DNA of 64,000 bases. It comes from Chitinophaga sp. MM2321 (GTDB taxonomy: Bacteria > Bacteroidota > Bacteroidia > Chitinophagales > Chitinophagaceae). Both the position numbers and the translations under genes were made by a program. Below are positions 51,756 to 62,496 of the stretch, one piece after another. Position 1 is the first letter of the stretch. Each line of letters begins with the position of its first letter. The notes beneath the pieces were generated by a model, which saw nothing but the letters and a program-made list of their open reading frames with translations, was not told the origin of the DNA and searched no databases. The stretch is from NCBI RefSeq assembly GCF_964033635.1, contig NZ_OZ035533.1:2542001-2606000 (forward strand). The letters run 5' to 3'.

Positions 51756-54700
51756 TTAAAAATTTATATCCACACCTACCAGCAACGTTTTAAATACCGG
51801 TGGACGTTGATCATAATCCCCTGTTACCGGTACTTCCGGGTCCATTGTCAGCTGTTTATCTTTTACAAAAGTCCATAGATTATTGGCTCTTGCATACACC
51901 CGTACATCGTTGATACCCGTCCTTGCCAGGTATCCTTTGGGCAGATTATAAGCCAGCAACAAATCTCTCAGCCGTATAAAACTGCCATCATATAAAAACC
52001 GGGATGATGTCTGATTGCTCAATCCTGTTTGCGTACCACCATACACTACTTTCGGAATGTTGGTATGGTCGCCGGGTTGACGCCAGCGGTTTTCATAGAT
52101 CAGGCGCGACATTTTGGAGGTTCCTCCAAATCCGCCGCTGCCGTCAGATTCCGTGAAAGCGCCCCAGTTATCATATACTTTATTACCCCAGTTATAAAAG
52201 AACTGGAAGCTCAGGTCGAATCCTTTGTAACTCAGGTAGTTGGTGACACCCCCATAAAACTTTGGTAGCGCACTACCCTGATTGAAACGTTGTGCTTCGC
52301 CATAAACGTTGGTGGTGGTGGTTTTTGTAGCATCCTTATACCATAGCGCCTCTCCTGTTTGCGGATCTGCGCCGGCATATCCAACGAGGAAGAACTGGTA
52401 AAAATCTACCCCTACTTCCCGCTTATAAGTATAAGTACTGGTGATCGGGTTATCCAACTTCGTAATCCTGTTATTTAAAGTAGAGAAGTTAAGATCTGTT
52501 CTCCAGGAGAACCCTTTCTCTTCTTTTTCAATGATGTTACGGGAGGAAAGTGAAATCTCCAGACCGCTGTTCCGCATTTCTCCGTTATTACGGAACACAG
52601 TGGTGATACCGTTTGTGGACGATACCGGTACATTGAGTAACAGGCGGGAAGTGATCCTGTTGTAGTATTCTACGGTACCGGATATACGATTTTTAAGCAG
52701 TGCAAAATCAAGTCCTGCATTGAATGGTTTATTCTGTTCCCATGTAAGATAGGAATTGGGGTATTGACTTAGCACATACCCCGGTTTCCCATCATAATCG
52801 TTTGCCGGATTGTATAACGACAAAGAAGCATAATTATCAATAGCCTGGTTTCCGTTGCTGCCATAGCTAGCACGTATCTTTAATTCGTTTATTCCTGGGA
52901 TGTCCTGCAAAAAAGATGCTTTATAAATATTCCATGCAGCGCCCAATGACCAGAAAAAAGCACTCCTCTTGTCTCTTCCGAAGCGTGATGACGCATCACG
53001 GCGGATAGAGCCGGAGAGATAATATTTTTGTTTGTAGTTGTAACTTGTATTTAGTAATACGCCTGTTAAAGCATTTACGGCATTCACAGAAGAAACAAAT
53101 TCGGGGGTTGATGCATCTGCGAGCTGCTGCATGCCTGGCAGGAAATTAGTAGCTGCAGAGGAATTGCCCGTATTTGTTGTCTTTTGCGCTTCATAACCTG
53201 CGAAGGCATTTAATCCATGATAGCCCCATTGCCGGTTGAAACGCAGGATGTTGGTAGATACCCAGTTGTTCCATAAGCTGTTATTGACGGAGGCACGGCC
53301 ATTGGTATTTCTGCCATCACCAAATTCCGGTGAATAGAAAGAATTACTGCGCGCATAGTTTAAATCCAGGCTGATCTTCGTTTCAAAAGTGAGAAAATCG
53401 GTGAACCTGTATTTGGCGCCGGCGCCACCCAGCAAACCATATATAGTGCCGGTACGCGTAACACCATTCATGATGGCTACCGGATTGAATGTACTGTTGT
53501 AACTGAAATCATAAGAACCATCGTTGTTGTAAACCTTCAGCCAGGGCTGTACCCGTGCGAGTGAGCGAACCGGGTTGGCCAGCAGGCCCTCATCGCCTAC
53601 GGCATTTGCACGCTGATAGCCGAGCGACAGGTTCACATCAAAAGAGAGCCTGTCGGTAGCATTATTGATGAGATTCATTTTGCCCGTCAGCCGTTTGTAG
53701 TCTACGCCTCTCAAAGCAGATTTAGAATCGTAGTAACCGCCGGACACGTAAAATTTTGTTTTTGCATTTCCGCCTGCGGCGGATAAATTAGCCTGGGTAA
53801 AACCACCATGACGGGTAAGTACATCTATCCAATTGGTATTAACGGTTGTATCTATACCGCGGGCCTTGATTTCCTGTTGAAATCCTGCTTCGCCGGTACC
53901 ATCCGCCTTATTGGCCCAACCCTCCCGCAGCAGTTCCATCATCTCACTGGTATTAAGCGGATAATTTTTCTTTGCGATGGTGAGCTGGTTGGTACCACGT
54001 TGTACAGATGCGTCGATCTTTGTTCTTCCTGTACTGCCGGTTTTCGTTGTGATCAGGATCACGCCATTGGCAGCACGGGAGCCGTAAATAGAAGCCGCCG
54101 CTGCATCTTTCAACACAGAGATGGATGCAATGTCAGCACTGTTGATACCGGCCAGTGAGTTCACATTATAATCTGTGAGATCATCTGTAACTACCGGTAC
54201 ACCATCTACTACGTAGAGCGGCGAACTACCCGCATTGATAGAGCCTATACCCCGGATACGGACGCTGGGCACAGAGCCCGGCTGACCGGAGCCATTGGTG
54301 GATTGCAATCCCGGTACATTTCCCTGTAAACTTTCCTGGAAGCTGCTACGTGGTGCTTTATCATAAAGAGAAGCATTTACTGTAGTAGCTGAACCTGTCA
54401 AAGAACCTTTTGTTTGAACACCATAGGCCACCACTACAACTTCATTCAGGCCCCTGGCATCATCCTTTAATATTATATCGAATTCCTTTCGATCATTTAT
54501 CGGTACCCGCTGCTCTTCATAACCAATGAAAGAGCAGATCAGCATGGCATTTGAGGGTGCTTCCATTTGAAATTCCCCACTGCCATCTGTGGTAGCGCCT
54601 TTGTTTAAACCAGCAATACGCACTGTCACACCAGGCAATGGATGCCCGGTAAGATCTGTTACGCGACCGCTGATATGTATGCCTTCCATCACTGTGTTTC

Positions 54701-55034
54701 CCGGAGCAATAGCTATCAGGTTATCAGAAAGATGTTTAAAAGTCAGACCCGTATTCTTCAGAATTTTGTTCAATACGTCTTCTAATAATTCATCTTTCAT
54801 ATTAACAGATATCCTGCTGTTGGCTGGCAGCAGATCATTCCGGTATACGAAACGACAATTGCTTTTCTGTTCAATCAACTTCAACAGGCGGATTAAGGGC
54901 ATTTCATCTGCTTTCACGGAGAGACGCGCATGTTGACCATACACATCACTGATCCCGTGTAAACAGGTAAAAAGAATAATAAAGGATACCAATTTCATTT
55001 TCAGAACAACTTTTCCTATTGTTTTCGTATGCAA
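51756..55034 (-). CDS. SusC/RagA-family TonB-linked outer-membrane receptor with STN domain
   Basis: 1092 residues (a second in-frame ATG, MKLVSFIILF, lies 12 codons in and is also plausible). Signal segment, then STN domain at about 35-105 (MPLIRLLKLIEQKSNCRFVYR...), carboxypeptidase-like domain at about 117-195 (ISGRVTDLTGHPLPGVTVRIAGLNKGATTDGSGEFQM), plug with NEVVVVAYGVQTKGSLTGSAT, GSINAGSSPLYVVDGVP, ISVLKDAAAASIYGSRAANGVILITTK, and the beta-barrel. The STN domain marks regulation through the FecR and FecI genes just upstream. It transports a glycan or peptide not identifiable here. Confidence 0.95.
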   Translation of the reverse strand: MHTKTIGKVVLKMKLVSFIILFTCLHGISDVYGQHARLSVKADEMPLIRLLKLIEQKSNCRFVYRNDLLPANSRISVNMKDELLEDVLNKILKNTGLTFKHLSDNLIAIAPGNTVMEGIHISGRVTDLTGHPLPGVTVRIAGLNKGATTDGSGEFQMEAPSNAMLICSFIGYEEQRVPINDRKEFDIILKDDARGLNEVVVVAYGVQTKGSLTGSATTVNASLYDKAPRSSFQESLQGNVPGLQSTNGSGQPGSVPSVRIRGIGSINAGSSPLYVVDGVPVVTDDLTDYNVNSLAGINSADIASISVLKDAAAASIYGSRAANGVILITTKTGSTGRTKIDASVQRGTNQLTIAKKNYPLNTSEMMELLREGWANKADGTGEAGFQQEIKARGIDTTVNTNWIDVLTRHGGFTQANLSAAGGNAKTKFYVSGGYYDSKSALRGVDYKRLTGKMNLINNATDRLSFDVNLSLGYQRANAVGDEGLLANPVRSLARVQPWLKVYNNDGSYDFSYNSTFNPVAIMNGVTRTGTIYGLLGGAGAKYRFTDFLTFETKISLDLNYARSNSFYSPEFGDGRNTNGRASVNNSLWNNWVSTNILRFNRQWGYHGLNAFAGYEAQKTTNTGNSSAATNFLPGMQQLADASTPEFVSSVNAVNALTGVLLNTSYNYKQKYYLSGSIRRDASSRFGRDKRSAFFWSLGAAWNIYKASFLQDIPGINELKIRASYGSNGNQAIDNYASLSLYNPANDYDGKPGYVLSQYPNSYLTWEQNKPFNAGLDFALLKNRISGTVEYYNRITSRLLLNVPVSSTNGITTVFRNNGEMRNSGLEISLSSRNIIEKEEKGFSWRTDLNFSTLNNRITKLDNPITSTYTYKREVGVDFYQFFLVGYAGADPQTGEALWYKDATKTTTTNVYGEAQRFNQGSALPKFYGGVTNYLSYKGFDLSFQFFYNWGNKVYDNWGAFTESDGSGGFGGTSKMSRLIYENRWRQPGDHTNIPKVVYGGTQTGLSNQTSSRFLYDGSFIRLRDLLLAYNLPKGYLARTGINDVRVYARANNLWTFVKDKQLTMDPEVPVTGDYDQRPPVFKTLLVGVDINF

Positions 55035-55146
55035 AAGGATTACATAATGTATGATTTTTTTCCATACATTTATGGTTGTTAAAGGTCAATAAAACGACGA
55101 CAGGACTGCATTGCCAAGTGAAGTAATCTGCCGTTGGATCTCAACA

Positions 55147-55183
55147 AAGGGTAAATGTTTCCAGCATTTGCCCTTTTTTTATG
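55147..55183 (+). terminator. Plus-strand terminator-like hairpin between susC and fecR
   Basis: AAGGGTAAATG pairs with CATTTGCCCTT (one G-T wobble) around a 7-nt loop and is followed by a seven-T run on the plus strand only. Both flanking genes are on the minus strand, so it may end an unannotated plus-strand RNA running from about 55080. Confidence 0.5.
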
Positions 55184-55217
55184 CAATTGGTATCTTTTTT
55201 TTGTTGTACGTAACCTA

Positions 55218-56282
55218 TTATGGGTTAATAAATACTTCATTACCTGTTATACGGCAATGGAATGATGTTGTAACCTTCAGTGCTTCCAGTATTTCAGGAA
55301 ATGATTCATTTTTAAAGGTGCCGGTAAAATGGTAATTCTTTAATTTATTATTAGTCAGATGTATTTTGATGTCGTACCAACGTTCCATTTTCAGCGCAAT
55401 ATCTTCGAATCTTTCATTGTCAAATACCAGGATGTTATCACGCCAGGCTGTTTCGCCGATCATGTTATCTTCCGGAAGCTGTTTTATATTTTCTATACTA
55501 TATCCCAAACCGGGTCTGGTATTGCCTTCCTGGGTTCCCCGGATAATTATTTTCTGATTGGGTGCCAGTCTTATCCGCCGGCTGGCATCATGATGAGGTG
55601 TAACTTCTACCACACCGCTGATCAAAGATGTTTCTGCGGTTTTATCGCCAGGGTAAGCCTTTACGTTAAAGGAAGTACCTAATACCTTCACTTCCATGGT
55701 ACTGGTGCGGATGATGAAGGGTTTATCAGCATTCCGGGCTACATTAAAAAATGCTTCTCCTGACAGGAACACTTCCCTGGTGCCTTTTTTGTTCATGGCA
55801 GGATTGTAGGTTAATTTGCTGCCACCGTTGAGCCATATTTCAGAACCATCCGGAAGTACTGCTTTTGAGCGGGAGCCGTTGTGGGTCTGTATTTCTGCTA
55901 TCTCGTCTTTTTTCGTTTCCCCATCTTTGTTCATTAGCAGGAATATACAATAGCTACCCAGCATTACTACCAGCAGTGATAATACTGCCATAACCCCTAT
56001 CCGGCTTTTTGCCTTTGGCGCCGGGGGGACTACCACCGGGATCACCGGGAGGTCTTGTGGAAAAGCTGCTTCCATTTTCAGGAGATGCTTTTCCAGTGCA
56101 GCGGTTGTTTTTTGGGTCCACTCATCACATGGCGCCGGCACCTGCCAGCTACTTAGCACAGAAAATTTATATCGTAACTCAGGGAATTGCTGCAACAGTT
56201 CTTCCAGTTCACGTAGCTCCGCCATCGTGGCTTCACCCGATACTTTCCTTCCCAGCAATAACCATATTCTTTCCTGTTCCAT
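55218..56282 (-). CDS. FecR-family anti-sigma factor
   Basis: 354 residues from the ATG at 56282 (MEQERIWLLLGRKVSGEAT); the longer frame is not family-like. Cytoplasmic N-terminal helical part at about 1-90 binds sigma; TM helix IGVMAVLSLLVVMLGSYCIFLL near 104-125; FecR domain near 145-240 (HNGSRSKAVLPDGSEIWLNGGSKLTYNPAM, REVFLSGEAFFNVARNADKPFIIRTSTMEVKVLGTSFNVKAYPG); DUF4974 C-terminal domain (FDNERFEDIALKMERWYDIKIHLTN). It should transmit a signal from SusC's STN domain to the sigma factor encoded upstream. Confidence 0.93.
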   Translation of the reverse strand: MEQERIWLLLGRKVSGEATMAELRELEELLQQFPELRYKFSVLSSWQVPAPCDEWTQKTTAALEKHLLKMEAAFPQDLPVIPVVVPPAPKAKSRIGVMAVLSLLVVMLGSYCIFLLMNKDGETKKDEIAEIQTHNGSRSKAVLPDGSEIWLNGGSKLTYNPAMNKKGTREVFLSGEAFFNVARNADKPFIIRTSTMEVKVLGTSFNVKAYPGDKTAETSLISGVVEVTPHHDASRRIRLAPNQKIIIRGTQEGNTRPGLGYSIENIKQLPEDNMIGETAWRDNILVFDNERFEDIALKMERWYDIKIHLTNNKLKNYHFTGTFKNESFPEILEALKVTTSFHCRITGNEVFINP

Positions 56283-56363
56283 GTTGATGATACAAAAGCA
56301 TGATTGTATATAGAAGGACAAGCTGTATACAGAAATCTACTACTCCGGGTAAAAAAAAATAAA

Positions 56364-56930
56364 TTATTTTGATTTGATGAAGGACAGGTTAATCGCTTCG
56401 CTGATCTTTTTCAGCGCCTGGGCCATGTGTACGTCGATGGTATTAACAGATATATCCAGGATCTGGGCTACTTCCTTATATTTCAGGCCGTCTTCCCTGA
56501 TCAGTTTAAAGATCATTTTTCTTTTGGGGGGCAACATATCGATGGCAGCTTCTATTTTCCTGACCATTTCGCCGGAAATAAAGATCTGTTCGGGTGTTGC
56601 GTAGCTGACACTAAAATCCACGGCTAGTTCATCCAGGCTGAAATGGGGCGTACGTGCGGCTTTCGTTAAGTAGTTAAGGGCTATATTTTTTGTGGAGACA
56701 TACAGGTATACATTCAGGTTTTCCACCTGCAGCAGGCGCTCGCGGTTTTTCCAGATATTCATAAATACATCTGAAGCAATTTCCTCTGCTGATTCCCACG
56801 ATTTTACAATAGAGTAAGCAAATTGGCTGAGTGGCTTATAAAACAATCTGAACAGGGCTTTGTAGGCCTGTTCATCTCCCAGCGAAGCTACCCGTTCCAC
56901 CAGCAATTGTATATTCGCTTCTTCCCTCAA
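56364..56930 (-). CDS. ECF sigma factor, FecI-like
   Basis: 188 residues. Region 2: LFRLFYKPLSQFAYSIVKSWESAEEIASDVFMNIWKNRE; region 4: AIDMLPPKRKMIFKLIREDGLKYKEVAQILDISVNTIDVHMAQALKKI. First gene of the sigma, FecR, SusC, SusD array. An imperfect 10-bp inverted repeat (AGTGATTAAA 56955, TTTAATCACT 57010) lies upstream. Confidence 0.93.
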   Translation of the reverse strand: MREEANIQLLVERVASLGDEQAYKALFRLFYKPLSQFAYSIVKSWESAEEIASDVFMNIWKNRERLLQVENLNVYLYVSTKNIALNYLTKAARTPHFSLDELAVDFSVSYATPEQIFISGEMVRKIEAAIDMLPPKRKMIFKLIREDGLKYKEVAQILDISVNTIDVHMAQALKKISEAINLSFIKSK

Positions 56931-57104: not shown

Positions 57105-57434
57105 CTATTTCTTGAACATAAAGAACACAGCGCCTATCAAAAGAATAAAGGATACGAGGTAGTTCCATCTCAACGGTTCTTTCAGGAAAAAAATGGCGAA
57201 CAGGCTGAATACTGTTAGCGTCACTACTTCCTGGATCGTTTTCAGCTGAAAACCGCTGAACCCTTCCTGCGCACCGAACCTGTTGGCCGGTACCATAAAG
57301 CAGTACTCAAAAAAGGCAATTCCCCAACTGATGAGGATCACTTTCCAGAGTGCTGTATCCTGGTATTTCAAATGTCCGTACCAGGCGAAAGTCATAAAGG
57401 TATTGGAAACAAGGAGCAGAAGAACAGTGCGCAT
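57105..57434 (-). CDS. DMT-family membrane protein (DUF486)
   Basis: 109 residues with four TM helices: VLLLLVSNTFMTFAWYGHL, WKVILISWGIAFFEYCFMVPANRFG, LKTIQEVVTLTVFSLFAIFF and VSFILLIGAVFFMF. The conserved AWYGHLK and PANRFG motifs identify DUF486. It lies 13 bases downstream of the SecB-like gene on the same strand and might be read with it, but it has no evident role in that module. Confidence 0.9.
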   Translation of the reverse strand: MRTVLLLLVSNTFMTFAWYGHLKYQDTALWKVILISWGIAFFEYCFMVPANRFGAQEGFSGFQLKTIQEVVTLTVFSLFAIFFLKEPLRWNYLVSFILLIGAVFFMFKK

Positions 57435-57447
57435 AATGCGAAATTAT

Positions 57448-57897
57448 TTATTTGTTTATTTCTTCTATAAGTGAGCCGGGAATAATAATGGGTAACAATG
57501 CGTTGTGCAGGAATGTTCCTTTAAATGTAGCAAACATTACTCCTCTTGTAGTAGATAAGGAGGTGCTGTGCAACGTTTCTATCAGTTGTTCCGGCATATC
57601 CGGCTGGCCGGAAGCATTTATTTTTACCACCTCGTCAAAATTATCGATGGTATAAATGGAGCTGACAGTAATGGAACCCAGCAGGTGATGTATATTTTCA
57701 TTGGCTACATCCACTTTTACGATAACAAACAGCAGTCTTTTTTCTTCATCTGCTTTGCTGGTAATATTTAGATTGAAATTGAAGCTGGTCAATGCAGGCC
57801 GATCACCAGGATAATGAATAGTGTTATCCAATAGTTCGATTGCTTTGAGTGCCAGGTTAACCGGCTCCACTTTTACTATCTGTGTTTTCTTTTGCAT
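57448..57897 (-). CDS. SecB-like chaperone of a toxin-antitoxin-chaperone module
   Basis: 149 residues, close to SecB length. The order of elements matches the SecB fold: beta strands FNFNLNITSKADEEKRLLFVIVKVDVAN, the strand-turn SSIYTIDNFDEVVKI at 79-93 (compare SecB GIFTISGFDEE), then a long helix and the LSTTRGVMFATFKGTFLHNALLPIIIP segment at 114-140, like SecB SMVSRGTFPQLNLAPVNF. It lies 45 bases downstream of an XRE antitoxin gene, the position of chaperones in TAC modules. I infer it protects the antitoxin from degradation; the canonical export SecB is not expected in this phylum. Stop is 13 bases from the DMT gene start. Confidence 0.75.
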   Translation of the reverse strand: MQKKTQIVKVEPVNLALKAIELLDNTIHYPGDRPALTSFNFNLNITSKADEEKRLLFVIVKVDVANENIHHLLGSITVSSIYTIDNFDEVVKINASGQPDMPEQLIETLHSTSLSTTRGVMFATFKGTFLHNALLPIIIPGSLIEEINK

Positions 57898-57942
57898 GGC
57901 GAATATTAATACGGGGAAGAAAGGAAAAATACGATCAATTGG

Positions 57943-58332
57943 CTAATAATTGCTCACTACCGGCGAAAAATATGGTGCGTTTGATTTTACATCTTTTATC
58001 GTTAGTGACAAGCGGATATCTCTTACCACTTTCACCTGTGTTGGTATAAAAAACTGTTCTATAGGCACCTCCAGTGCAATGGCGATTTCAGACAAGGTGT
58101 CAATAGTAAAATTGTGTCCTCCACTCAGCCACCGGGAAATCTCAGAAGGGCTTTTACTCATTTTAGCTGCCAGGTCTTTATTGTTGAGGCCTCTGTCGTC
58201 CATGATCTTACCGATACGGTCTGCCAGCAATATTTTAGTTCCTATCTGTAAATCTTCCAGGGGCGTAATGCCTGCCAGCAGATCTGCAATAATTTTACTA
58301 CTGTATTTTCTTGCTTCATTATTCTTTGTCAT
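57943..58332 (-). CDS. XRE-family antitoxin of TAC module, HigA-like with C-terminal tail
   Basis: 129 residues. A 35-residue N-terminal extension precedes the HTH at about 38-92 (LADRIGKIMDDRGLNNKDLAAKMSKSPSEISRWLSGGHNFTIDTLSEIAIALEVPIEQFF). A tail of about 33 residues follows and ends NAPYFSPVVSNY, rich in aromatic and hydrophobic residues. Such a tail is what a chaperone-addiction (ChAD) region should look like. The start overlaps the upstream toxin stop by 14 bases. It presumably represses the promoter at 58867 through the palindrome there. Confidence 0.85.
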   Translation of the reverse strand: MTKNNEARKYSSKIIADLLAGITPLEDLQIGTKILLADRIGKIMDDRGLNNKDLAAKMSKSPSEISRWLSGGHNFTIDTLSEIAIALEVPIEQFFIPTQVKVVRDIRLSLTIKDVKSNAPYFSPVVSNY

Positions 58333-58816
58333 GGTCTTTAAAGATTAGATCTCCTTTCAATTGTGAACCATCCGGCGACCGGTATATTGCGCCATCATGG
58401 ATCTTATGTAAAATATCTTTTGAAATTTTCATCATGGCTATCACCTCTTCCGGTTTTTCGCCCTTCTGCAAAGAGGGTGGCTGCGCTGCGGCTGAACCGC
58501 CCCCTCCTATTATGATTGGTACTGCGCCATATCTGATACAATATAATCTAAGATTTTTTTCAATGTGTCCATATAAGGCACTAACGCCAGCAGCCGGTAT
58601 TCCTTCCTGTACTTTAAAATATTTTTCCTGTACGCCTACGCTGCACCCCATTGCAGTTAATAGTTTGGTAATCGCATTCAACTCCGTTTTGTATGTCGAA
58701 ATATGCGTCCTCACAAAACGCTCAAACAAACTGATATCTTCATTAGCCATTATTATAGAGTAAATATGTGCCCGCTTTCCGGAGAACTGCTGTAATTCAA
58801 TAATCTCGTAATTCAC
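58319..58816 (-). CDS. Putative RelE/HigB-like toxin of TAC module
   Basis: 165 residues starting at GTG (58814-58816). The first 75 residues are mixed helices (ISLFERFVRTHISTYKTELNAITKLLTAMG). Residues 89-107, LRLYCIRYGAVPIIIGGGG, look like the C-terminal strand-turn-strand of RelE/HigB toxins (LRLYxxR...ILGGG). A Ser/Ala/Pro linker and a helical C-terminus (PEEVIAMMKISKDILHKI) follow. It is the first gene of the three-gene unit toxin, antitoxin, chaperone, in the canonical TAC order. The toxin assignment rests on this motif plus gene order; no catalytic residues can be proven. Confidence 0.65.
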   Translation of the reverse strand: MNYEIIELQQFSGKRAHIYSIIMANEDISLFERFVRTHISTYKTELNAITKLLTAMGCSVGVQEKYFKVQEGIPAAGVSALYGHIEKNLRLYCIRYGAVPIIIGGGGSAAAQPPSLQKGEKPEEVIAMMKISKDILHKIHDGAIYRSPDGSQLKGDLIFKDHDKE

Positions 58817-58866
58817 GTTTACTTGGGGTTTACGTTAGGATAAGATTGGTTGGTGTAAAGTAGGAT

Positions 58867-58898
58867 CTAAATTAACATTAAAGTTAATTTCTGTCAAA
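58867..58898 (-). promoter_or_regulatory. TAC promoter overlapping a 22-bp palindromic operator
   Basis: On the minus strand TTTG (58898-58895), 20 bases, then TAATTTAG (58874-58867) match the -33 and -7 boxes with ideal spacing. The palindrome AAATTAAC-N6-GTTAATTT (58869-58890) covers the spacer and overlaps the -7 box. This is the expected layout for repression by the HTH antitoxin. The leader is about 45-50 nt. Confidence 0.7.
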
Positions 58899-59050: not shown

Positions 59051-59083
59051 GTTGTCCTTTAGGGGAACTTTTCTGTATCTTTG
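59051..59083 (+). promoter_or_regulatory. Promoter and operator-like dyad of the second TA pair
   Basis: TTG at 59052-59054, 21 bases, then TATCTTTG at 59076-59083 form a good -33/-7 pair. An imperfect dyad GTTGTCC-TTTA-GGGGAAC (59051-59068) overlaps the -33 box. The first possible codon of the toxin (GTG 59088) lies only five bases beyond the -7 box, so the transcript may be leaderless. Confidence 0.6.
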
Positions 59084-59087
59084 TGCT

Positions 59088-59435
59088 GTGGAAACAAAGA
59101 AGTATCGAACAGTCGTTTTTTATAAGAAGCATTTTGACAATTTTTTCAAAGAGCAGAAAAAAGAAGTTCAGGATAAGATACTCTGGACTTTAAAAGCAAT
59201 TGAAGAATTGGAGAGGGTGCCAGAATCATATTTGAAACATCTTGAAGGAACAGAAGGGTTATATGAGGTGAGAATAAAGCAACGCACTGACATTTTTCGA
59301 ATATTCTGTTTCTTTGATAAAGGGAAACTAGTTGTTTTGGCGAATGGGTTTCAAAAGAAAACGCAGAAGACACCCAAGAATGAAATTACAAAAGCATTGA
59401 AAATTAAAAGTGAATATGAAAAAGACGAAAAATAG
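59088..59435 (+). CDS. RelE/HigB-family toxin
   Basis: 115 residues with GTG start at 59088; the frame extends to 59052 but that runs through the promoter, and no ATG exists in the gene. The RelE-fold pattern is clear: YRTVVFYKKHFDNFFKEQKKEVQDKILWTLKAIEELERVPESYLKHLEGTEGLYEVRIKQRTDIFRIFCFFDKGKLVVLANGFQKKTQKTPKNEI. The basic Arg/Lys and the Leu-Tyr-Glu-Val-Arg, Arg-x-x-Phe motifs match HigB/phage-Gp49-like toxins that cleave ribosome-bound mRNA. Overlaps its antitoxin by 20 bases; A/T-rich codons. Confidence 0.88.
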   Translation: METKKYRTVVFYKKHFDNFFKEQKKEVQDKILWTLKAIEELERVPESYLKHLEGTEGLYEVRIKQRTDIFRIFCFFDKGKLVVLANGFQKKTQKTPKNEITKALKIKSEYEKDEK

Positions 59436-59724
59436 TAACCTCACTTCCCTTGACGATTTCATTGATAAACATCATGGTAAACGTGGAGCCGAAAAGCGCG
59501 AAGAATTTGAAGCTGGGTATGAAGTTTTTAAACTTGGTTCTTTATTACATGAAGCAAGGTTAGCCAAGGGGTTAACACAAGAGGAACTTGCAGCTAAAGT
59601 AGGGAAGAATAAATCTTACATATCAAAAATTGAAAATGATATTAAAGAAGTTAGGCTTTCCACTTTACAGAAAATCGTTAAGATTGGATTAGGGGGAAAG
59701 GTTAGTTTATCAATTGATTTTTGA
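59416..59724 (+). CDS. XRE-family antitoxin of second TA pair
   Basis: 102 residues from the ATG at 59416; a GTG two codons earlier is also possible. HTH at about 42-90: LGSLLHEARLAKGLTQEELAAKVGKNKSYISKIENDIKEVRLSTLQKIVKIGLG. The N-terminal part (DDFIDKHHGKRGAEKREEFEAGYEVFKLG) likely binds the toxin. Overlaps the toxin gene by 20 bases. Both genes are visibly more A/T-rich than the flanking genes. Confidence 0.88.
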   Translation: MKKTKNSNLTSLDDFIDKHHGKRGAEKREEFEAGYEVFKLGSLLHEARLAKGLTQEELAAKVGKNKSYISKIENDIKEVRLSTLQKIVKIGLGGKVSLSIDF

Positions 59725-60153: not shown

Positions 60154-60570
60154 CTATTGTTCCAGTTTGATTTCGCCCAGATCAGTAGCTTTACCGTCTT
60201 CTACTTTTACATCCTTGATCACCGCATTTTTGTACGGAGCCTTAGCCAGGACAGTAATTGTATAAGTACCGGCTTTTGCTGCGGGAATAGCGAAAGAACC
60301 TTCGGCGATAGCGCCTTTCAGCTTTTCTTCACCCATAGCGGCTTCTACTTCAGTAGCGCCATCTGCTGGTGAAATTTTTCCGGTAATGGAGCCGCCTTCT
60401 ACTGCGCGGAGAGAATCAATACTAACCAAAGAATCAGTAGCAGCCAGTGAATCTACCGCAACAGCGATGCTGTCGGTTGATTTAACGGCTTTTACATCAG
60501 CACTTTTAAATGCAGACATTCCTACTACAATTGTTGCTAAAGCGAGCATTCCTGTGATTGTTTTTTTCAT
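60154..60570 (-). CDS. Small exported protein with CarboxypepD_reg-like domain
   Basis: 138 residues from the ATG at 60570 (MKKTITGMLALATIVVGMSAF). Signal peptide, then a Ser/Asp/Ala-rich spacer (DSIAVAVDSLAATDSLVSIDS) and a beta-sandwich-like C-terminus (SITGKISPADGATEVEAAMGEEKLKGAIAEGSFAIPAAKAGTYTITVLAKAPYKNAVIKDVKVEDGKATDLGEI) typical of carboxypeptidase-regulatory-like domains. Envelope or secreted location is inferred. Monocistronic with its own terminator. Confidence 0.78.
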   Translation of the reverse strand: MKKTITGMLALATIVVGMSAFKSADVKAVKSTDSIAVAVDSLAATDSLVSIDSLRAVEGGSITGKISPADGATEVEAAMGEEKLKGAIAEGSFAIPAAKAGTYTITVLAKAPYKNAVIKDVKVEDGKATDLGEIKLEQ

Positions 60571-60726
60571 GGCATTCAATTTTTTGTATGGTTAAAATAA
60601 TAATGACTAATTGAACCAGCGTGCGGTGATTGTGCATGATTTTTGTTACTATGCCCAATTCGTTACCGGCGGTATAATAACAATACATCCGAAAATGAGG
60701 ATACCATTAGTCAAAGAAATGTTAAA

Positions 60727-60896: not shown

Positions 60897-61439
60897 ATGT
60901 TGCAATTGAGTAACGAGGAAATAGTAAAAGGCATCAGGAACAGGCATAGAGACGTGTTTGAAGCTGTTTTTAAACAGTTCGCACCTTCTATGTATAATAT
61001 TGCCGTTCGTTATGTAAAAGATGAGGAAGATGCGAATGATATGGTACAGGATGTATTCCTCAACTTGTGGAAAGGAGCCGAAAACCTGGATGAACGGGCG
61101 CCAATAAATCACTACCTGGCCAGAGCAACGGTGAACACCTGTCTTAACCGGATAAAAAAAGAACAACGTAAGGAACTATATGCAAAGGAGCAATTGTTGT
61201 CTGCCACACCAGCAGATAATGGCCATGCCCTCCTGGAACATAAAGAACTGGAAGCACAGTACCGGTCAGCACTCGACAAGCTCCCGGACCAATGCCGCCG
61301 CGTATTTGAAATGAGCCGCCTCAAAGGTTTAACCCCCGCCGAAATAGCAGAACAATTAAATATCTCTATTAATACTGTATACGCTCACCTGACCACTGCG
61401 CTGAAAAAATTGCGGATTGTACTTATTAATAAAGAGTAA
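60897..61439 (+). CDS. ECF sigma factor, FecI-like
   Basis: 180 residues. Region 2: VFKQFAPSMYNIAVRYVKDEEDANDMVQDVFLNLWKGAE; region 4: ALDKLPDQCRRVFEMSRLKGLTPAEIAEQLNISINTVYAHLTTALKKL. Heads the second sigma, FecR, SusC array (plus strand). Confidence 0.93.
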   Translation: MLQLSNEEIVKGIRNRHRDVFEAVFKQFAPSMYNIAVRYVKDEEDANDMVQDVFLNLWKGAENLDERAPINHYLARATVNTCLNRIKKEQRKELYAKEQLLSATPADNGHALLEHKELEAQYRSALDKLPDQCRRVFEMSRLKGLTPAEIAEQLNISINTVYAHLTTALKKLRIVLINKE

Positions 61440-61506
61440 AAACCTGTATTTTTTTAACATCGCTTAATGGTAAACCCTTTTCTGGTTGTATAGTTAATAA
61501 GTAGCC

Positions 61507-62496
61507 ATGAACAGTAAAACTGACATAGACATAGTGATCCGTTACCTGGAAGATCCGGAAAATGAGCAGCATAAGCAGCAGCTCAATCAATGGATACAAC
61601 AGGATGCATCAAACCTCGATATCTTCCTGGACATGAAAGATATGTGGCATGGCGATCCGTTACCTGCTGCATCCGCTTTCGATACCCATGGACAATGGCA
61701 ACAACTGAATGCTGCACTGGATGCAGTACCCGTTTCTACTGAACAACCCGCTACCCCGCAACCTGTTAAAGGCCGCGTTATAAAAATGAAACCCCGCTAC
61801 TGGTGGGCAGCTGCGGCAGTAATGCTGTTTGCTGTTACCTGGACCTGGCTGGGCCCCGGTGGTTATAAAACAATTACAACAGCACAAAACCTGGATAGCC
61901 TTCATCTTCCCGATGGCTCCATGGTATATATTAATGCACATACTACCATCCGCTACCCCCGCTCTTTTGGTAAAGAAAACAGGCATCTCAGCATTGTTAA
62001 AGGAGAAGCTTTTTTCGATGTTACCAAAAATGATGCACTCCCCTTTACCGTTGATGCACCCGATGTGGAAGTACAGGTACTGGGCACTTCTTTCAACGTA
62101 AGAGCGGCCAGCGCCGGTGTTAAAGTATTTGTACAAACCGGAAAAGTAAGCGCCGCTTACAAAGGCACTGAAAAGAAAGTGATCCTTACTCCCGGTGTGG
62201 AAGCATCGCTGAAACATAACGGTACCGGTATTGAAACACAACTTCATAAAAAGAATAATAATATCCTCGCCTGGAAAACCAGGTGTCTTACTTTCGATGA
62301 TTCCCCACTTACAGAAGTGGCTACCGCATTGGAAGATTTTTATAATGTACAGATAGATATCCGCGATCAGCAACTGGCTGATAAAAAGCTGCTGGCTACC
62401 TTCCGTAACATGCCGCTGGATGAAGTCCTGGACATTATGAAGAAAACATTACAAATCAATATCTCTCATAAAAACAACCTGGTAGAAATCTACTAA
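61507..62496 (+). CDS. FecR-family anti-sigma factor
   Basis: 329 residues. N-terminal sigma-binding part (DIDIVIRYLEDPENEQHKQQLNQWIQQD), TM helix YWWAAAAVMLFAVTWTWLG near 98-116, FecR domain near 125-225 (LDSLHLPDGSMVYINAHTTIRYPRSFGKENRHLSIVKGEAFFDVTKNDALPFTVDAPDVEVQVLGTSFNVRAA) and C-terminal DUF4974 (LTFDDSPLTEVATALEDFYNVQIDIRD). Lies between the sigma factor and the SusC gene, 67 and 21 bases apart. Confidence 0.93.
   Translation: MNSKTDIDIVIRYLEDPENEQHKQQLNQWIQQDASNLDIFLDMKDMWHGDPLPAASAFDTHGQWQQLNAALDAVPVSTEQPATPQPVKGRVIKMKPRYWWAAAAVMLFAVTWTWLGPGGYKTITTAQNLDSLHLPDGSMVYINAHTTIRYPRSFGKENRHLSIVKGEAFFDVTKNDALPFTVDAPDVEVQVLGTSFNVRAASAGVKVFVQTGKVSAAYKGTEKKVILTPGVEASLKHNGTGIETQLHKKNNNILAWKTRCLTFDDSPLTEVATALEDFYNVQIDIRDQQLADKKLLATFRNMPLDEVLDIMKKTLQINISHKNNLVEIY

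Follow-up and report, generated by a model that had tools for sequence, protein, structure and literature searches.

The 64,000-nucleotide stretch of the Chitinophaga sp. MM2321 genome analysed here (contig NZ_OZ035533.1, positions 2,542,001 to 2,606,000; hereafter the window) carries on its minus strand three adjacent, co-directional open reading frames (ORFs) in the order toxin-antitoxin-chaperone. They probably form a toxin-antitoxin-chaperone (TAC) operon, one of a family centred on Bacteroidota and listed by PADLOC as PDC-M64. The three gene products are referred to as T, A and C.

The three gene products and their putative promoter

The toxin gene (58319-58816) begins with GTG and encodes a 165-residue protein, which an AlphaFold2 (AF2) model and structure matches place in the RelE/HigB superfamily as a divergent member. 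It overlaps by 14 bases the gene of the 129-residue XRE/HTH_3 antitoxin (57943-58332; PF01381, 2e-10; PDC-M64C, 1.8e-21). A gap of 45 bp separates the latter from the gene of the 149-residue SecB-like chaperone (57448-57897), assigned by its predicted fold and also matched by PADLOC PDC-M64. A further 13 bp downstream lies the gene of a DMT_6 (DUF486) membrane protein (57105-57434, minus strand; PF04342, 1.9e-46), which marks the border of the insertion and is possibly co-transcribed with the TAC genes. Gene order, sizes, start codon, overlap and antitoxin tail are all as a first-pass annotation of this DNA had described them. That annotation made no mention of the neighbouring DMT_6 gene, of the fixed insertion site or of the missing loop lysine described below.

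PADLOC models of PDC-M64 match all three proteins (T at 3.7e-31 with PDC-M64B, A at 1.8e-21 with PDC-M64C, C at 2.4e-17); these are E-values, the curated cut-off for PDC-M64 not being displayed. Pfam sees A alone, through HTH_3 above its cut-off; for T and C, searches of Pfam and NCBIfam gave no family even at E <= 1. The relationship of T to RelE/HigB and of C to SecB, as the first-pass annotation had proposed it, is missed by the curated sequence models and recovered by the predicted folds.

The AF2 model of T has a confidence score (pLDDT) of 81.5, falling below 50 in residues 109-120. Its structure matches have the RelE/HigB fold and align it with HigB1 of Mycobacterium tuberculosis, residues 1-9 and 150-165 remaining outside the alignment. 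An ADP-ribosyltransferase toxin, as in CmdT, was set aside because the predicted fold is RelE-like. Direct sequence comparison led to no known fold. For the 77 relatives of T, the 25 Pfam families listed out of 40 include no HigB, Gp49 or RelE model, phmmer searches of the Protein Data Bank (PDB) with T and C gave no matches, and profiles A1 and A2 and the wider profile A5 (77 of the 85 toxins, eight truncated ones left out) gave unrelated matches only. Among 2579 ORFs, the profile of T does match the neighbouring Gp49 gene (59052-59435), at 3e-4. The segments LRLYCIRYG and IGGGG are separated by five residues, one more than originally counted.

The chaperone has a predicted SecB-like fold despite its lack of a Pfam or NCBIfam family. 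Its motif, first read as RGT...LP, is RGV...KGTF...LLP. C lies below the curated cut-off of PF02556 (SecB), and a single one of 68 C proteins matches this model, at E 0.0056. In PDB, the wider profile A4 ranked an unrelated entry (0.1) ahead of E. coli SecB (E 0.19-0.20). Canonical SecB (PF02556) was found in 5 of 99 genomes surveyed nearby, in four of them over the cut-off, and none was found by this model in the window's own genome. The expectation that SecB is uncommon here therefore holds; the toxin family itself is not rare in the phylum, a survey of 395 genomes having detected it in 47 (E <= 0.001), with weak or partial matches included.

Three other loci bear on the chaperone. In a Balneola module (L036:4897-5343, plus strand) a Pfam SecB occupies the chaperone slot and is not alignable to the usual C, hhalign of C against it giving nothing. 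A PDB search with this SecB gave no matches. The chaperone of this module may have been replaced. In the window's own genome, a protein at 4134589-4134906 (L003:1375-1833, minus strand) matches the C profile weakly (1.5e-4) and no Pfam family, and its locus has no toxin or antitoxin match. A 65-residue ORF (L058:5254-5448, plus strand), perhaps the remnant of a second copy, resembles the C-terminal end of C; it shares bases, in a different frame, with the end of an intact C gene.

Upstream of the toxin gene a promoter-like sequence was read by eye on the minus strand (58869-58897), with TTGACA (58897-58892), a 17-bp spacer and TAATTT (58874-58869). The 22-bp palindrome AAATTAAC-N6-GTTAATTT (58869-58890, strand-neutral) covers the -10-like box. 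The promoter-like sequence and the palindrome overlap, as first reported. The palindrome alone is not above chance, five of 60 shuffles of the same promoter equalling it.

Operator, antitoxin tail and chaperone across the family

A genome scan yielded 60 loci, and T was found in 28 of the 99 genomes of relatives, the window's own included. Nearly all hosts of the scanned loci are Bacteroidota; the others are Balneola, Ignavibacteria and one metagenome-assembled genome labelled Bacillota. Among 90 loci examined, a toxin was present in 88 and a T-A pair in 86, or 85 without L064, which is identical over the module to L005 of Chitinophaga hostae. Also dropped were L063 and L086, with no usable toxin, and L033 and L053, with no paired antitoxin. 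The PDC-M64 model matches 77 of 77 toxins. A C gene follows 69 of the 85 pairs (68 by profile, plus L036), so that the three-gene order is conserved in most of the relatives. C was sought downstream on the same strand, and its absence from the other 16 pairs rests on profiles; a Pfam scan of the next ORF in ten of these 16 detected no SecB. Mapped onto the toxin tree (77 rows), presence or absence of C takes seven changes, and well-supported branches force at least four for the rows without C.

The palindrome of the window is a diverged copy of an operator shared by the family, TTnACTTATAAGTnAA. At no more than two mismatches in 14 positions, this sequence occurs near the toxin start in 51 of 58 regions of loci L004-L063, against 0.70 in shuffled sequences and 1 of 58 within the modules. 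It occurs likewise in 14 of 27 further relatives (shuffles 0.20; module-internal 1 of 27). Nine of the 27 belong to the fixed Chitinophaga lineage described below and none of these is within two mismatches, so the count outside that lineage is 14 of 18. The consensus was refined by eye on a list drawn from both sets, which makes the counts partly circular; the shuffles and the module-internal control serve as the check. The window operator has three mismatches to the consensus, and in the fixed lineage as a whole (n = 10) none is within two and four are within three. The window palindrome gains meaning only through its relatives, most of which have the operator at the same place. It is also present in eight of 11 two-gene members with short antitoxin ends, in agreement with a repressor role of A.

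The tail of A (residues 98-129; 57946-58041, minus strand) is a candidate chaperone-addiction (ChAD) region. It ends in NAPYFSPVVSNY and contains aromatic residues; the W-x-R-x3-Y of the solved ChAD peptide is absent. Tail length was counted as residues after the KWLSG-type anchor of the helix-turn-helix (HTH) domain. All 69 antitoxins accompanied by a C gene have 55-89 residues after the anchor, and those without C have 28-51 in 11 of 16 cases and 54-82 in five. In M. tuberculosis it is the C-terminal ChAD region that makes the antitoxin need its chaperone (PMC5105189, PMC6377645), and the pattern seen in the family is what such a need predicts. The toxin tree provides four well-supported independent pairs, of which on average 1.8 behave as predicted, none in the opposite way and 2.2 show no difference. 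With so few independent contrasts, the link between tail and chaperone is a correlation. The ends of four antitoxins without a detected chaperone (L035, L059, L052 and L056; 54-61 residues after the anchor) look charged or helical by eye and are possibly another kind of extension, and the end of L085 looks like that of the tailed L092.

There is no sign of recent mobility in the collections searched. The 170 pattern matches in viral contigs included no relative, phage records gave no match to the L012 toxin, and plasmids gave none to the window toxin. The L012 query had one partial plasmid match, in Bacteroides thetaiotaomicron (NZ_CP103284.1:59865-60158; 37% over 62% of the query).

The fixed Chitinophaga lineage and its toxin loop

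A TAC stands beside DMT_6 in ten genomes of the genus, those of the window, G011, G029, G037, G041, G043, G044, G053, G054 and G059. The DMT_6 neighbourhood was read in 30 loci of the 59 genomes with a match, and in the others toxin and DMT_6 coordinates were compared. In 17 of the 20 loci read that have no TAC, the same side of DMT_6 is occupied by a homologue of window gene 60154-60579; in L107 the homologue is on the other side of DMT_6, and in L113 and L115 there is none within reach. In the window, the TAC and a second, ordinary Gp49/XRE pair separate this gene from DMT_6. The TAC was therefore either inserted beside DMT_6 or lost in the other genomes, and the window copy belongs to one lineage fixed between the DMT_6 gene and its former neighbour. 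The DMT_6 tree requires four changes of TAC state (shuffled mean 8.6; none of 500 shuffles as low), which is compatible with a single origin. On the toxin tree the ten toxins group together as a clade (SH-aLRT 99); every one of their genes is full length and starts with GTG.

The second toxin-antitoxin pair (59052-59724, plus strand) is divergent from the TAC and lies between the same two flanking genes; it comprises a Gp49/HigB-type toxin (PF05973, 2.3e-23) and an XRE antitoxin. Genes that by eye resemble those of sigma factors and FecR flank the insertion on both sides (51756-56930 and 60897-62496), with what looks like a TonB-type receptor on the left, and all these flanking genes read away from it.

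The toxins of the lineage differ from the rest of the family in the segment that contains the GGGG motif and the beta4-alpha3 loop (T residues 104-120; 58457-58507, minus strand). A lysine is found within four residues after the invariant G106 in 67 of 67 toxins outside the lineage and in one of ten inside it (L084). Eight of the ten have an arginine within five residues after G106. The window toxin, in which the family lysine position is A109, reads GGGGSAAAQPP and is the sole case among 77 toxins with neither K nor R within five residues. All 77 toxins keep R90 and Y92. The basic catalytic residues in HigB1 are R77 and K95. In a weak profile alignment of T with the neighbouring Gp49 toxin (probability 38), the LR-Y strand and the turn before the lysine line up and A109 falls on the K of G-F-Q-K, which has the F-x-K spacing of HigB1 F93/K95. 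A109 would accordingly correspond to HigB1 K95 through this one alignment. The K95A mutation of HigB1 abolishes toxicity (PMC9098466), and ordinary HigB-type cleavage by the window toxin is in doubt.

The lineage toxin genes are under purifying selection in the measurable pairs, none of which includes the window toxin: of the 45 pairs, 24 have dS < 1.2, and for these the ratio of nonsynonymous to synonymous substitution (dN/dS) is 0.055-0.192. The nine window pairs fall outside this set, with dN 0.44-0.53 and dS saturated or above 2.5.

In the family at large, the toxin ORF is shorter than 150 residues or in pieces in 9 of 88 loci (L006, L042, L051, L053, L055, L056, L057, L059 and L060), and six of the nine stop at or soon after the GGGG motif. 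Such breaks at G-rich codons may reflect slippage, inactivation or assembly error. The shortest paired antitoxin in this survey has 97 residues and the shortest chaperone 134, no frame-aware search for broken A or C having been made.

Proposed mechanism, alternatives and known systems

The TAC reading, already put forward in the first-pass annotation, is carried by the predicted folds of T and C, the XRE antitoxin with its tail, the chaperone gene behind most T-A pairs and the shared operator. In the mechanism proposed, T would target mRNA at the A site of the ribosome, by analogy with toxins of its predicted fold. A would bind T and, as the shared operator suggests, repress the operon through the palindrome over the promoter. 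The co-occurrence of tail and chaperone suggests that the tail makes A depend on C for its stability; C would hold the tail and protect A against proteolytic attack. If C were then titrated, perhaps by a phage structural protein in the manner of CmdTAC and HigBAC, A would be degraded and T set free. In the fixed lineage, operator and loop lysine have diverged while the measurable toxin genes remain under purifying selection, so that the TAC probably persists for the sake of some role in which HigB-type cleavage of the ordinary kind could be reduced or changed.

The genes might instead comprise a two-component HigBA-type pair and a SecB-fold export chaperone that is unrelated to the pair, is inherited along with it and has no action on A. 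The 16 pairs without C and the forced changes on the toxin tree indicate that the pair can exist alone, and an export role is conceivable in a genome in which PF02556 finds no SecB. This is improbable, however, given that the antitoxin ends short in 11 of the 16 members without C and in none of the 69 with it. Still less probable is a decaying remnant, with a dead toxin outlived by its antitoxin and chaperone. Loss of the loop lysine, divergence of the operator and the short toxin ORFs elsewhere in the family would fit decay; the full-length ORFs of all ten lineage members and the low dN/dS of the measurable pairs speak against it.

A tentative possibility is that the fixed-lineage toxin no longer acts as an RNase and survives as a binding partner, either co-repressor or ribosome binder, making the module a regulator or sensor and not an agent of growth arrest. 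The changed loop, most extreme in the window, the effect of K95A in HigB1, the fixed position in ten genomes and the purifying selection all favour such domestication. Against it stand the arginine present in the same loop of most lineage toxins and the lysine kept by one, through which catalysis could have been re-wired, the conservation of R90 and Y92, and selection figures that come from pairs excluding the window toxin. In a further and rather unlikely reading of such domestication, the module persists under selection because the work is done by the T-A-C complex itself and not by ordinary mRNA cleavage; C would be the sensor, and T an effector that is re-wired or does not cleave.

The TAC assignment gives PDC-M64, a defence candidate listed by PADLOC without a mechanism, a likely mechanism class. 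It also adds to the known TAC systems a Bacteroidota family in which curated sequence models miss both toxin and chaperone. Relatives with or without the chaperone, and with long or short antitoxin ends, provide a natural test of the gain and loss of chaperone addiction. The fixed lineage poses the question of the role of a TAC once the catalytic loop of its toxin has changed.

PADLOC output gives PDC-M64 no description or mechanism, and its models named A, B and C are mixed across the toxin, antitoxin and chaperone roles. PDC entries were derived by guilt-by-embedding and have the status of unvalidated candidates (PMC12988326). No paper was found under the name PDC-M64, and a literature search outside of which key subscription papers lay returned no description of the family as a TAC in Bacteroidota. 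Known TACs are generally of the HigBA, HicAB and MqsRA types (PMC5105189). The HigB/Gp49-type RelE toxin at 59052-59435 has a profile likeness to T, yet T falls in no Pfam or NCBIfam model.

The M. tuberculosis TAC (HigB1-HigA1-SecB-TA, Rv1955-1957) shares with the window module the gene order and a DNA-binding antitoxin with a C-terminal extension (PMC5105189, PMC6377645), as well as a SecB-fold chaperone and a RelE/HigB-fold toxin with a long C-terminal helix (PMC9098466). That helix removes the novelty which the first-pass annotation had seen in the C-terminal helix of T. Unlike HigB1, T has 165 residues, an extra N-terminal strand and C-terminal strands outside the alignment, no curated family and an alanine aligned with K95. 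The window tail differs in having no W-x-R-x3-Y, and C in having no sequence match to any PDB chain. CmdTAC and HigBAC of E. coli have the same toxin-antitoxin-SecB-like chaperone organisation, CmdT being an ADP-ribosyltransferase, unlike the predicted RelE-like T. In these systems the chaperone-antitoxin contact is disrupted by the T4 major capsid protein (CmdTAC; PMC11618068) and by the lambda major tail protein (HigBAC; PMC11980606). TAC systems, and PDC-M64 as a nameless PADLOC candidate, were thus already known; new are the likely mechanism class of the family, its operator, its tail pattern and a fixed lineage with a changed loop.
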